Origin: Thermoplasmatales archaeon SG8-52-3
Lineage (GTDB): Archaea > Thermoplasmatota > E2 > DHVEG-1
Assembly (NCBI GenBank): GCA_001595915.1
Contig: LSSG01000018.1
Location: 1 to 43,675, forward strand
Length of the DNA stretch: 43,675 nucleotides
Direction: 5' to 3'
The notes under the pieces were generated by a model, which saw only the letters and a program-made list of their open reading frames with translations, was not told where the DNA came from and did no database searches. Of this stretch, positions 5,982-37,682 are shown one piece after another (positions within the stretch are counted from its first letter, which is position 1; each line of letters opens with the position of its first letter). The position numbers and the translations under genes were made by a program.

Positions 5982-6506
5982 TTATTTTATCGAAAACTCC
6001 CATTCACACCATAAATCTTTTGGATGTTTATCAGGTGGACAAACTTTGCAATTGACTTCGATATTTGGGTTAAATTCTTTAGCAAAGGATTTTAAGAAAC
6101 CAAATCTAACAGGTTTACATCCAAATTCAACTAAACCTTTTTTCTTCCTGGTATTTTGAACTCGACAGTTTGTGTTTCTAACAATTGCCTTATCTTTTTC
6201 AACAATTATCTCTTTATCTTCTAAGTCAAGTGCCCATCCAGAATATCTAAGAGCCTCGATCATTGAAGGTATGTCTGTGCCAGTTATATCAAAGAATTTT
6301 TTTATTCTCTTAGCCTCAATTTTGCCCATTAACTCCCATACTCTTCTATCAATGTCAGTTGCTGCTTCTGTTCCAAAATCTTCTTCAATTCCAAGGTAAT
6401 ATAATCCATCAACAGCCCACATATTGCGTAGATGCATAAAAATAAAGTCAGCAAGCTTATCTTTTGGTATTTTTGAAATAAGATTTTTATCAATTTCTCT
6501 ACTAAT
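5982..6506 (-). CDS. DUF6125-like cytosolic protein, apparent AUU start
   Basis: From the first ATG (6437) the protein has 151 residues. The frame stays open upstream to a TAA at 6519-6521, and the extra 23 codons (ending KIPKDKLADFIF) look like the natural N-terminus of the family, whose members usually have a short helix before LRNMWAVDGLYYLGIEEDFG. There is no ATG, GTG or TTG in that extension. A GGGGGA ribosome site at about 6513-6518 is well placed for ATT (6506) or the preceding ATC. Conserved features: FGTEAATDIDRRVWELMGKI, a Cys-containing C-terminal half (NCRVQ, FGCKPVRFGF, CKVCPPDKHP, LWCEWEF) that may bind a metal. Archaeal and bacterial homologues are uncharacterised. It follows EtfA on the same strand after about 55 bp. 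Confidence 0.65.
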   Translation of the reverse strand: MSREIDKNLISKIPKDKLADFIFMHLRNMWAVDGLYYLGIEEDFGTEAATDIDRRVWELMGKIEAKRIKKFFDITGTDIPSMIEALRYSGWALDLEDKEIIVEKDKAIVRNTNCRVQNTRKKKGLVEFGCKPVRFGFLKSFAKEFNPNIEVNCKVCPPDKHPKDLWCEWEFSIK

Positions 6507-6561
6507 GATTTTTCCCCCTTAGAAGAAAGTTATGTGCACCTTTAAAAGAAGGTGATAAATT

Positions 6562-23207: not shown

Positions 23208-24113
23208 ATGGGATCATTCAAAAATTCTTATGTTCTAGGTGAAATACTAAGGTCTCTTTATCATGTAGCAGGAAGAAGAACAACTGAAACTTTTGCAGCA
23301 AAGGTAATAGGTTCAATTATTAAGACTCTTGAACAAAAACATGAATTTTTAATTTTTGTAAGAATTGATGAAAGGGGTAAATTAATTGATGATGAGGTAA
23401 TTGCTATTTCCCCTGAAATAGATAATATTGAACCAGAACGAGTCGGAAGAGCAATAGAAGCAATAATTAGAATTGTATATATGGACATTATTGGTAAAGC
23501 AGGACTCTTTTTCATTGCAGAACTTAAAAGAAGAGCGGGTGATGATCTTATGAATGCTCTTCTTGAATATGGTGTTGATCTTGCAAGTTTACAAATAGAA
23601 CAACATTATCTATATAGAAGTAGAGAACGAAAGAAAGCAAAACTAGGTAAGGGTACATCTGGAGTAAGTCTACTTGGTTATACTTGGAAAAATGTAGCGT
23701 CTTGGAAATATGATCCTGGAAAAAAGTCTTGTGTTCTATATAATAAGGAAGGTGAAGTTTTAGACAATTTGCATTTGGAGTCAATCATTGAAAACTATGT
23801 AAAAAATTTATCTGATGAGATTACTGATATTCCTGATGAGTTAGAAAAGAAAATTGAGGTAAATGAAAAAGAATTTGAACTTTTAAAGATGCTGCAATCA
23901 AGAGACATGGATGCAGAAACTGCAGTTGTTTTATTACATATTACAAAACAACAATTTAATAATATTTTAAAGAAACTTTTAGAATATGAATTTCTTCAAT
24001 ATATTTCGTACAATGTAATAGAACTTACTGAACTAGGTATAAATTATATTACTAAAAGAGAAGAAGCACTTGAAAAAAAACCTATAACAGAAGAAATTAA
24101 GAAACAAGTTTAA
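23208..24113 (+). CDS. Conserved-looking protein of unknown function with C-terminal winged helix
   Basis: 301 residues, no signal peptide or membrane segment. Residues 1-125 are alpha/beta (ILRSLYHVAGRRTTETFAAK, FLIFVRIDERGKLIDDEVIA, RVGRAIEAIIRIVYMDIIGK). Residues 126-205 include a basic stretch (LYRSRERKKAKLGKG) and FLY-rich strands. Residues about 215-285 read as a winged helix-turn-helix (EFELLKMLQSRDMDAETAVV, FNNILKKLLEYEFLQYI, ELTELGINYI). A DNA-binding or regulatory role is possible; no family name can be given. TATA-like DNA lies about 30 nt upstream and there is no ribosome site, so the mRNA is probably leaderless. Its stop overlaps by 4 bp the stop of the convergent zinc-ribbon gene. 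Confidence 0.7.
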   Translation: MGSFKNSYVLGEILRSLYHVAGRRTTETFAAKVIGSIIKTLEQKHEFLIFVRIDERGKLIDDEVIAISPEIDNIEPERVGRAIEAIIRIVYMDIIGKAGLFFIAELKRRAGDDLMNALLEYGVDLASLQIEQHYLYRSRERKKAKLGKGTSGVSLLGYTWKNVASWKYDPGKKSCVLYNKEGEVLDNLHLESIIENYVKNLSDEITDIPDELEKKIEVNEKEFELLKMLQSRDMDAETAVVLLHITKQQFNNILKKLLEYEFLQYISYNVIELTELGINYITKREEALEKKPITEEIKKQV

Positions 24114-24445
24114 TTTGACTTTTTATCCATCCAAATATATTTGCATCTAGAGCAAAACCAACCTTGTGAAATCCATTTTTGTTTTCCATATTTTGGATTT
24201 ATATGTCTATATAGTCTTACAAGACCCAAACTACATTTTGGGCATTTCTTCTTAAATGAGGAAGAATAAGGGTCTCCTCCCATCTTGTACATTAATGTAT
24301 CCGCAGCAACGTAATATGTATAACCACATTTTGTGCAGTTCCATGCTGTTGGAACCCAGGATCTTTTCCCTTCGAAACTTTTATTTTGATAAAGTTTAAC
24401 AGCCTTTGAACCACATTCTGGGCATTTCTTTTTAATATAAACCAC
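24110..24445 (-). CDS. Double zinc-ribbon protein
   Basis: Two zinc ribbons in tandem: CPECGSKAVKLY...CTKCGYTYY and CPKCSLGLVRLYRH...CSRCKYIW. Their spacing and flanking aromatic residues are alike, so the protein arose by duplication of one module. 111 residues from a GTG at 24445, but that codon overlaps the ribosome site GGAAGGTGG (24450-24442). The better-placed start is ATT at 24436, five nucleotides after it, giving KKKCPECG as N-terminus, common for zinc ribbons. Role unknown, perhaps transcription-related. Downstream of, and possibly cotranscribed with, the histidine kinase gene (18 bp gap). Confidence 0.75.
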   Translation of the reverse strand: MVYIKKKCPECGSKAVKLYQNKSFEGKRSWVPTAWNCTKCGYTYYVAADTLMYKMGGDPYSSSFKKKCPKCSLGLVRLYRHINPKYGKQKWISQGWFCSRCKYIWMDKKSN

Positions 24446-24462
24446 CTTCCAATTGGTAAAAT

Positions 24463-27496: not shown

Positions 27497-27545
27497 TTTA
27501 TATATTAACACATGTTATTATTATTTACAATAGGGGGAGTAATTC
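27497..27545 (+). promoter_or_regulatory. TATA box and Shine-Dalgarno of the M14 carboxypeptidase gene
   Basis: TTTATATATTA at 27497-27507 is a good archaeal TATA box. GGGGGAG at 27533-27539 is the ribosome site; it is 6 nt before the ATA at 27546 but 33 nt before the nearest conventional start (TTG, 27573). Confidence 0.6.
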
Positions 27546-29708
27546 ATAAAAAAGTTCATTAACAAAAAAATATTGTCAATTATATTGTTGATTCTATTAT
27601 TTGCACTATCTTTTGCACAAGGATCTGTTATTAATTATCAAAAATTCGATAAACTCGACCAAGCTATTGTAAAGATTCCATTATCAAATCCTTCAACCTT
27701 AGGTAAAATAATCGATAATGATTTTGCTATCCTTGAAATAAATGAAAATAATGTAATAATTTTTTCAACAATCCAAGAAATAAAATGGCTTGAAGCTCAA
27801 AATCTTAACCCAAAAATTCTATTTGATGACTATTCTGAAATGATGGGTTGGAAAGAAAATCCTGAACTTCTTGATGATTTTCATTCTTATTCTGAGTTGA
27901 CTTCTGAATTACAAGATATTGCCAGTACATATCCATCAATTGCAAAAATCTACAATCTTGGAAGTAGTGTTCAAGGTAGAACAATTTGGGGTCTAAAAAT
28001 TACAGATTACCCTGATATTGAAGAAAACGAAGCTGAAGTTAGAATCTGCGGATGTCATCATGGTAATGAGTTAATGTCTGTAGAGCTTCCTCTAATGCTT
28101 GCTTGGTTATTGGTTGAAAATTATGAAAGTGATCCTAATATTCAAGATCTTGTTGATGAGAGAGAAATATGGATCATTCCTCTAGTAAATCCAGATGGCA
28201 GAGAAATGACTTCAAGATATAATGCTAATGGTGTAGATCTGAACAGGGATTATGGATATATGTGGGGTGGAGAAGGTGGGAGTCCCTCACCATTTTCCCA
28301 ACCTGAAACCAAAGTTATTAGAAACCATGCAATTGATAATAATTTTGTTTTTTCTCTTTCATTTCACACGTCTGGTGATGTTGTAAATTATATTTGGAAC
28401 TATAAAGGTGATCCTGTTGCTGATAATGAAGTGGTTGCCGCTCTTTCTGAGCAGTATGGTTCTCATAACAATTATTGGGTTGTAGAAGGATATGACTGGT
28501 ACCAAACGAGAGGCGATACTAATGATTTTTCATATGGATGTCGGGGAGATATTGATTGGACTATTGAAGTTCAAAATAGTGATATCCCACAAGCTTGGGA
28601 TTATAATAGGGATGCAATACTTGAAATAATTGATGCTGCAGATATAGGTTTAAAAGGAGTTATTACTGATTTTAATACTGGTCTTCCAGTTGCTGCAACT
28701 ATATGGGTTGAAGAAGTTTATTGGCCTTGTTTTACTGATCCAAAAATAGGAGACTATCATAAACCACTATTCCCTGGTTCATATAATGTAATAGTTAGAG
28801 CAAATGGATATCAGGAACAAACTCATCAAGTTGTTATAAGTGAAGGTGTCACAACGGAACTTGATGTTTCTCTATCCCCTGAGGATAATTTTTATGCTGA
28901 ACAAGTGACATTGTGTAATTTTTATGATCCATATGGTTATCCAAATAATTTTCAGAATAATCCAACTGAAGCAATATCAGCTCTTGGTCCACCAGAAGGA
29001 ATTTGCGCATCTTTGGGTAAAGGTGGTTATATAATTTTAGATATGGGTGAAGAGGGTATAATTATCGATCATGAGGATTCTGTAGATTTTAAAATATATG
29101 AAGAGGGAGGATCAGATGATAGCTATGATGTATATTTATCATCTAATTGGACTGGTCCTTGGACATATTTAGGTCTTGCAACTGGAACAACTGAATTTGA
29201 TTTGAATGATTTTTCAATTGATCAAGCTCAGTTTATAAAAATAGTTGATGACAATGACGGTGATGCTTATGAAACAAATCCTGGTGTTGATATAGATGCA
29301 ATTCAACATATTATTCCATTTGTTAATAATCCGCCATTGATTCCTGAAATCGATGGACCAAAGTCAGTAAATCAAGGAGTTGAATATAATTTTTCATTTT
29401 CAACAACTGATCCCGAATCAGATGCTGTTTATTATTATATAATATGGGATGATGGTTATATTGAGTCGTGGATTGGTCCAAATAATTCAGGTGAAAAAAT
29501 TAATGTCTCACATACATGGGTAAATAAAGGAATACATACAATTAAGGCTAAAGCTAAGGACATTTATAATGAAGAAAGTAAATTTGCAGAATTTGAAATA
29601 GAAATTCCAAGAAGTAAATTTGAGAGTAGAATGTTTTTTTCTAGATTTTTTGAGCATTATCTAAATTTTTTTCCAAAACTAAGAAATATTTTAGATTCAT
29701 TGAAATAA
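27546..29708 (+). CDS. Exported M14-family zinc carboxypeptidase with PKD domain, apparent AUA start
   Basis: 720 residues if started at ATA 27546, which restores a proper signal peptide n-region (KKFINKKILS before the hydrophobic core, cleavage near SFAQG); from TTG 27573 the protein has 711. Catalytic domain about 110-350: zinc ligands in CHHGNE (His172, Glu175) and SFHTSG, substrate residues in LVNPDGREM and NGVDLNRDYG, and catalytic Glu in DWTIEVQ. Next a carboxypeptidase-regulatory-like beta domain (GVITDFNTGLPVAA), a jelly-roll-like region, a PKD domain (FSTTDPESDAVYYYIIWDD, HTWVNKG) and a C-terminal tail (PRSK then hydrophobic FFSRFFEHYLNFFP). It should degrade peptides outside the cell. 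Confidence 0.9.
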   Translation: MKKFINKKILSIILLILLFALSFAQGSVINYQKFDKLDQAIVKIPLSNPSTLGKIIDNDFAILEINENNVIIFSTIQEIKWLEAQNLNPKILFDDYSEMMGWKENPELLDDFHSYSELTSELQDIASTYPSIAKIYNLGSSVQGRTIWGLKITDYPDIEENEAEVRICGCHHGNELMSVELPLMLAWLLVENYESDPNIQDLVDEREIWIIPLVNPDGREMTSRYNANGVDLNRDYGYMWGGEGGSPSPFSQPETKVIRNHAIDNNFVFSLSFHTSGDVVNYIWNYKGDPVADNEVVAALSEQYGSHNNYWVVEGYDWYQTRGDTNDFSYGCRGDIDWTIEVQNSDIPQAWDYNRDAILEIIDAADIGLKGVITDFNTGLPVAATIWVEEVYWPCFTDPKIGDYHKPLFPGSYNVIVRANGYQEQTHQVVISEGVTTELDVSLSPEDNFYAEQVTLCNFYDPYGYPNNFQNNPTEAISALGPPEGICASLGKGGYIILDMGEEGIIIDHEDSVDFKIYEEGGSDDSYDVYLSSNWTGPWTYLGLATGTTEFDLNDFSIDQAQFIKIVDDNDGDAYETNPGVDIDAIQHIIPFVNNPPLIPEIDGPKSVNQGVEYNFSFSTTDPESDAVYYYIIWDDGYIESWIGPNNSGEKINVSHTWVNKGIHTIKAKAKDIYNEESKFAEFEIEIPRSKFESRMFFSRFFEHYLNFFPKLRNILDSLK

Positions 29709-37046: not shown

Positions 37047-37361
37047 TTATATTACCTCCATCGAGAGTTCATTTATTTGCAAATGTTTTCCAAATCTCTT
37101 TTTTTCTTTTACTTTACCTCCTTCCTGTTTTCCAGGTAAATTTAAAAGATTTTCCTGATTTATATTATTTATCCCCTTCTGTATACATTTATCATCAAGT
37201 CTCATTTGCTTTCTTAAACCTTGAATTTCACAATTTTCATTCATTTTATCTAATATTTCCATACTTTTTTCGGTAACATTTTTCACATATTCTTCAATAT
37301 AAATTGATAATATCACTACTGCTTTGTCAGAAATTTGACATCCTTTACATTTTTCTTTCAT
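37047..37361 (-). CDS. Small helical protein upstream of the integrase
   Basis: 104 residues, Lys/Glu/Asn rich. N-terminal KCKGCQISDKAVVILSIYIE carries one CxxC; further Cys at CEIQG and DDKCIQ. Helical up to about residue 75, then a basic tail (GGKVKEKKRFGKHLQ). No family recognised. Its stop is one base before the integrase ATG, and the integrase ribosome site lies inside its 3' end, so the two are translationally coupled. It may be a partner or accessory of the recombinase. Confidence 0.6.
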   Translation of the reverse strand: MKEKCKGCQISDKAVVILSIYIEEYVKNVTEKSMEILDKMNENCEIQGLRKQMRLDDKCIQKGINNINQENLLNLPGKQEGGKVKEKKRFGKHLQINELSMEVI

Positions 37362-37682
37362 AATTTTCCTAATAGTTTCAAATGGGAGTATACAACCAAC
37401 TCCTATATACTAAATAATTTAACATTTAAACATTACATTTTTAGGTCCTAGTGTTACACTAATACCTTGTTTTTTTTTTATCGTCTTTTATTATAGATTT
37501 ATAACAATTTTATCATGTTGAAATGGATTATTTTATTTTGATCATTATCCTAAATTATCTCCTTAAAAATTTACTACGTATTTTCTATGACCTTATGTAA
37601 TATATATACCTTGTTTGGATTGTGCATCAAGATAAAATAATTACCATCATTTTGTTTATATATTGAATACATCGTAAACCGT
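37362..37682. other. Non-coding gap inside the element-like region
   Basis: No gene found. Very AT-rich. Contains the inverted repeat 37527-37542/37626-37641 and a repeated TACCTTGTTT (near 37471 and 37607). Presumably holds the promoter for the 104-aa gene and integrase. Confidence 0.6.
37527..37641. repeat. Interrupted inverted repeat, 16-bp arms
   Basis: ATTATTTTATTTTGAT at 37527-37542 and the reverse complement of ATTATTTTATCTTGAT at 37626-37641 match at 15 of 16 positions, separated by 83 bp. Could be recombinase arm sites, a regulator site or a transcript structure; low complexity weakens it. Confidence 0.4.

Follow-up and report, generated by a model that had tools for sequence, protein, structure and literature searches.

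The window (the whole 43,675-nt stretch of contig LSSG01000018.1 analyzed here) belongs to a draft MAG of Thermoplasmatales archaeon SG8-52-3 (hereafter G000; 1.9 Mb in 84 contigs, with a GC content of 31%), of a lineage that we take to be MBG-D-like. Its ORFs start mostly with ATG and, in a few cases, with TTG or GTG. The gene of main interest encodes an M14 zinc carboxypeptidase (Table 1), with a match to Peptidase_M14 in Pfam (E 4e-48) and with CarboxypepD_reg and PKD domains. Proteins with PKD domains are numerous in the family (the PKD region of this gene matched 16–24 places per genome in many relatives).

Table 1. Features of the proposed near-cognate start regions (positions in the window) and loci of the apparently split initiator tRNA genes
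Feature	Position or locus	Strand	Remarks
Shine-Dalgarno-like site GGGGGAG, M14 gene	27533-27539	+	Duplex energy about -9 with AUCACCUCCU; conserved in both G001 and G002
In-frame stop TAA	27540-27542	+	Part of the 6-nt spacer TAATTC between GGGGGAG and ATA
ATA, proposed carboxypeptidase start codon	27546-27548	+	ATA in G001, ATT in G002
M14 zinc carboxypeptidase gene, 720 aa from ATA	27546-29708	+	Pfam: Peptidase_M14, CarboxypepD_reg, PKD
TTG, first ordinary in-frame start	27573-27575	+	33 nt after the Shine-Dalgarno-like site; TTT in G001
Shine-Dalgarno-like site AAGGGGGA, DUF6125 gene	6513-6520	-
ATT, proposed DUF6125 start codon	6504-6506	-	ATC in G001, ATT in G002; ATG in that column in other genera
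DUF6125 gene, 174 aa from ATT	5982-6506	-	Pfam E 5e-37; next ordinary start 23 codons in
Shine-Dalgarno-like site GGAAGGTGG, zinc-ribbon-like gene	24442-24450	-	In-frame GTG within
ATT, proposed start codon of the zinc-ribbon-like gene	24434-24436	-	ATT in G001 and G002
Small zinc-ribbon-like gene, 108 aa from ATT	24110-24436	-	Pfam matches weak, all below cut-off
Apparently split initiator-tRNA loci	L290, L295, L296, L300, L301, L302, L303, L308, L309, L313

Between the in-frame stop and the first ordinary start, the complete series of in-frame codons is TTC ATA AAA AAG TTC ATT AAC AAA AAA ATA, so that the first ATA is followed by AAA AAG TTC ATT AAC AAA AAA ATA TTG. This ATA is a single-base variant of AUG, it lies at initiation spacing behind the Shine-Dalgarno (SD) site, and it is in the frame of the gene. 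The protein translated from it opens with (M)KKFINKKILSIILLILLFALSFAQG, a lysine-rich basic n-region followed by a hydrophobic core. On our own reading, with no predictor behind it, this N-terminus resembles a signal peptide. The first-pass annotation had described GGGGGAG at 6 nt ahead of ATA, the codons that follow and the TTG at 33 nt, with a signal-peptide-like start from ATA whose basic n-region would be lost with the TTG. The description and the distances are right, and the signal-peptide part held as a reading of the sequence.

The M14 gene is found in two further species of the genus (G001 and G002), with 79%–81% identity. The start region reads GGGGGAG TTAATC ATA AAA AAA TTC ATT in G001 (the same gene being in CP070712.1, L035) and GGGGGAG TAAATT ATT AAT AAT TTC GTT in G002 (DAOVGR01, L042). 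The SD site is thus kept in 3/3 species and the codon, ATA, ATA, and ATT, is ATG in 0/3. Since the arrangement recurs at the same place in both other sampled species, it is more than chance; the pattern and its conservation are shown. The presence of ATG in orthologues had been proposed as a check on the AUA start: its absence within the genus favors that start. Other genera have ATG after a G-rich site (L005, L008, L010, L032, L033, and L037). In the eight codons following the start, G000 and G001 differ by three synonymous changes, at third positions, and no non-synonymous one, while the comparison of G000 with G002 gives three changes, all non-synonymous. The latter three count against a start at ATA/ATT.

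Two alternatives bear on this codon. Translation could start at the TTG at 27573, with SD and ATA being a coincidence or a relic. TTG is an ordinary start type, both the window and G002 have it here, and TTG starts are known in the lineage. On the other hand, this TTG has no SD of its own and is far from the one present, and starting there would cost the protein its N-terminal lysines. In G001, where TTT replaces it, the next ordinary start lies 14 codons past ATA. With the TTG nine codons into the ORF and missing in G001, no ordinary start is fit to replace ATA, and we consider this alternative unlikely. A base error in the assembly could be suspected in a draft MAG. The SD site with ATA or ATT, and never ATG, in the separate MAGs of the two other species makes such an error improbable; with three separate MAGs lacking ATG at this codon, and many genes alike, it is all but excluded.

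The 5′ ends of the window ORFs were aligned with homologues from the available parts of G001 and G002. A near-cognate stands at the proposed start of three window genes (27546+, 6506-, and 24436-) in all three species (in the order G000/G001/G002, ATA/ATA/ATT for M14, ATT/ATC/ATT for DUF6125, and ATT/ATT/ATT for the zinc-ribbon-like gene). The last two are probably the "two other genes in this window" that the first-pass annotation invoked, without naming them, for a real use of AUA/AUU starts; both have ATT or ATC across the three species. In all three genes, the changes between the near-cognate and the next ordinary start are mainly at third positions. Because of the in-frame GTG inside its SD, the zinc-ribbon-like gene is a less clean case than the M14 and DUF6125 genes. 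In the DUF6125 gene of G001, an in-frame ATG is present seven codons upstream, before the SD. Another possible near-cognate start occurs at 37047–37409 of the window (minus strand), where AGGAGTTGG and then ATA precede the first ATG.

Four genes (aIF6, IscU, DUF6125, and IorB) were followed through 60 relatives each, and for each aligned locus it was asked whether any in-frame ATG, GTG, or TTG occurs from the upstream stop to codon +6 of the aligned start. L246 and L338, truncated at a contig end, were left out of the counts. By this rule, an ordinary start is absent from 3/30 family loci for aIF6 (G001, G003, and G035, all with ATA), 3/23 for IscU (the three species of the genus, with ATT), 5/28 for DUF6125 (G000, G002, G018, G025, and G033, with ATT), and 1/28 for IorB (G008, with ACG). 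Outside the family, the corresponding counts are 0/22, 0/6, 0/1, and 0/2. Applied to M14, the rule gives 9/24 loci, but with duplicate records and alignment-offset cases among them; the M14 case is made for the genus, with its three species, alone. Summed over the four genes, 12/109 family loci contrast with 0/31 non-family loci, for genes selected because a family member has a near-cognate. As each was chosen for its near-cognate in one genus, the fairer family figure omits that genus and becomes, by our tally, 2/27 for aIF6, 0/20 for IscU, 3/25 for DUF6125, and 0/26 for IorB, or about 5/98. Any single gene therefore mostly keeps an ordinary start. The outgroup sample is too small for about 5/98 against 0/31 to demonstrate confinement of the habit to the family.

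Some loci went uncounted. In IscU of G021, G025, G028, and G034 and in DUF6125 of G001, G003, G006, G010, and G021, ATT or ATC stands at the expected place with an in-frame ordinary codon upstream, often inside the SD. Such GTG, TTG, or ATG codons in or before the SD, present in the zinc-ribbon-like gene and in several IscU and DUF6125 loci, weaken the case. The next ordinary start is found 23 codons in for DUF6125 of the window and 24 to 104 codons in for aIF6.

In several columns, ATG and a near-cognate stand at the same place in different genera. For aIF6, the ATA CTT CAG of G035 is matched by ATG CTT CAG in several other genera. For IscU, the genus has GGTGATAAA ATT CCG and G003 has GGTGAAAAA ATG CCG. 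For the AsnC-domain gene, ATA GAT TGG AAA AAT in G001 corresponds to ATG GAT TGG AAA AAT in G008. For IorB, the ACG of G008 faces 29 other loci with an ordinary start there or nearby. Among eight scanned proteins, the Pfam domain starts 3–13 residues past the near-cognate in seven; in the eighth, a prenyltransferase, it starts at residue 73. Neither TusA nor PyrD, both with CTG, has an ordinary start near the conserved N-terminus (the first ATG of TusA lies inside the CPMP motif, and the first ordinary start of PyrD is 16 codons in). That relatives have ATG at these columns is shown; initiation at the near-cognate codons is inferred.

Two candidates were dropped. In FeoB of G001, a TTG immediately precedes ATA. 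The MiaB-like gene of G002 looked like a switch from ATG to ATA, but G002 is one base shorter there: after the SD, G000 (L101) has ATGAAAAAAACG and G002 (L151, about 2815–2830) has ATAAAAAAACG. No in-frame ordinary start follows for 59 codons in G002, and the loss of one base may be a deletion, a slippage, or an assembly error, each being possible. Separately, a group of exported repeat proteins of G001 and G002 opens with GGAGGTG or GGAGGTA, TTTT, and ACG AAT AAT GAA (several ORFs, in L083–L093 and L154–L173 of G001). ACG seems to be the start codon of that whole paralogous family, an inference from sequence alone.

The claim of a real use of AUA/AUU starts in the lineage is supported, on sequence evidence only, and is widened to aIF6, IscU, the AsnC-domain gene, IorB, and PyrD, and to AUC, CUG, and ACG. 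On the same kind of evidence, near-cognate starts are a habit of the lineage and not a property of a single odd gene. RNA editing could restore AUG in the transcript: AUA could be read as AUG after A-to-I editing, and ACG could become AUG by C-to-U editing. Neither reaction, however, converts AUU, AUC, or CUG to AUG, and all of these occur in the lineage. Because the near-cognate codons are too varied, RNA editing is rejected as all but impossible.

Enrichment behind SD motifs was assessed in about 2.0 Mb sampled from four genomes of the family, a strong SD being defined by E <= -8. No archaeal SSU (16S 3′ end) was found in G000–G002, and the archaeal consensus anti-SD (the sequence given with the first site in Table 1; PMC7531240) was therefore used. 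At the start region, the strong-SD ORFs of these four genomes have 319 ordinary codons, 67 near-cognates, and 27 that are neither; restricted to ORFs with a homologue in another genome, the numbers are 228, 54, and 32. The control was a mock motif of complementary composition. Near-cognate versus other ORFs number 54/32 with the real SD and 18/43 with the mock (p=1e-4); counted per codon, near-cognates are 68/252 and 20/182 (p=3e-5). ATA (15 vs. 4), ACG (11 vs. 0), and ATC (8 vs. 0) are raised, while AAG and AGG are not raised behind the SD relative to the mock motif. The enrichment over the mock motif is shown. If the mock ratio is applied, chance accounts for about 13 of these 54 ORFs, and the ~41 that remain, beside 228 ordinary starts, amount to roughly 15%; this estimate is rough and holds for strong-SD genes only, with 677 of the 991 family ORFs with homologues lacking a strong SD and standing outside it. 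A reversed anti-SD, tried as a second mock, still pairs with GGAGG and is unusable as a control. The false positives set aside comprise the GGES motif of PdxT (G008), the TGGAGY motif of an epimerase (G000), PKD repeats, and other internal SD-like sites.

Two outgroup genomes (201 kb) yielded 28 ordinary, 3 near-cognate, and 5 other codons, too few for a comparison. A test independent of the SD, homology above the first ordinary start, is positive for 41/991 family ORFs and 2/92 outgroup ORFs, some of them truncated genes, and does not by itself separate the family from the outgroup.

We consider it likely (probability of about 0.82) that the carboxypeptidase of the window is translated from the AUA at 27546 and that the family uses such starts often, although initiation is inferred, without protein or ribosome data. 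The GGGGGAG site, 6 nt upstream, would position the 30S subunit with AUA in the P site; the initiator Met-tRNA would accept a codon with a single mismatch, and the protein would begin with Met, the first residue being itself an inference from sequence. The anchoring by the SD would compensate for the mismatch, by analogy with the AUA/AUU starts of Staphylococcus aureus. AUA, AUU, AUC, ACG, and CUG would then be starts in an appreciable share of the SD-led genes of the family, replacing AUG in housekeeping genes. The output is likely to be below that of AUG, for which we have no measurement.

The tolerance of the initiation machinery to mismatches is likewise inferred. In Pyrococcus and Sulfolobus systems, the mRNA is pre-positioned by the SD, and aIF1 contributes to the rejection of wrong initiation complexes, non-AUG ones included (PMC6237735). 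A loss of aIF1 as the cause is rejected, since aIF1 is present in 55/60 relatives and intact, with ATG, in the family loci examined. An altered initiator tRNA is not supported either: its sequence is ordinary both in the family and at one locus of a sister family, with the GGG/CCC pairs of the anticodon stem kept (G001 gave no match in the initiator-tRNA search). With aIF1 and the initiator tRNA looking ordinary, there is no known cause for a relaxed selection of the start codon; aIF1A, aIF2, and the ribosome were outside the comparison. It is possible that the low GC favors changes from ATG to ATA or ATT, and that tolerance and mutation bias suffice.

In 10/30 initiator-tRNA loci, G000 and G002 included, the tRNA is apparently split after its first four bases: AGCG is found upstream (in CATAGCGAG...), the remainder continues from GGGTGGGG, and another conserved stretch lies upstream. 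From sequence alone, an intron seems to interrupt the acceptor stem, between positions 4 and 5.

A bolder reading is that this Thermoplasmatota family, with its many genera, has a generally relaxed check of the start codon, the near-cognates behind a strong SD being ordinary starts in ~1 in 7 strong-SD genes, aIF6 and IscU included, that drift to and from AUG. We could argue for or against it with equal conviction. A rival is that the near-cognates are attenuators, individually selected to keep output low, like those of ccpN and cvfC1 in S. aureus, where the AUA/AUU starts are conserved and give about 10% of the output of AUG in poor medium (PMC13009471). Selection also fits the conservation of near-cognates across the three species of the genus. 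Against it, the codon varies among relatives (ATA/ATT, ATT/ATC, and ATG in other genera), and the genes form a diverse set, with aIF6, IscU, and PyrD among them; we consider attenuation less likely than not. For any one case, sequence cannot tell tolerated drift from selected attenuation.

If frequent near-cognate initiation in the family is real, gene callers limited to ATG, GTG, and TTG truncate or miss such proteins. If it is common, the annotation of these uncultured archaea is wrong for N-termini, for signal peptides, and for some genes as a whole, and the lineage would also be a natural setting in which to study start-codon checking by the archaeal initiation complex.

Near-cognate starts are regarded as rare in prokaryotes: among 61,358 ancestral AUG starts surveyed over 36 genome triples, two changed to CUG and one to AUU (PMC5622118), a count that rests on annotated starts. 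In the literature searched, mostly at the level of titles and abstracts, there is no report of near-cognate starts as the habit of an archaeal lineage, and "start codon" was not found in the part of the Thermoprofundales/MBG-D literature searched. Archaeal GUG and UUG starts (PMC7531240) are, like those proposed here, cases of non-AUG initiation, SD-led or leaderless; the sections of that work bearing on the question concern AUG, GUG, and UUG only, whereas second- and third-position mismatches occur here. In S. aureus, AUA/AUU starts were mapped experimentally in infC, ccpN, citZ, and cvfC1 (PMC13009471). There, as here, the near-cognate is led by a strong SD (an extended one for infC, ccpN, and cvfC1) and is conserved among relatives (for ccpN and cvfC1). 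Those are, however, four sites in one bacterium, while the present case, which rests on sequence only, extends over an archaeal family, many genes, and several codons, with exchange between ATG and near-cognates across genera. The same class of codons replaces AUG between close relatives in the survey of genome triples, but near-cognates are far more frequent in this family than the rare CUG and AUU recorded there. AUA/AUU starts are thus already known singly in bacteria and, as far as the literature searched shows, what is new is their extent and the archaeal setting.
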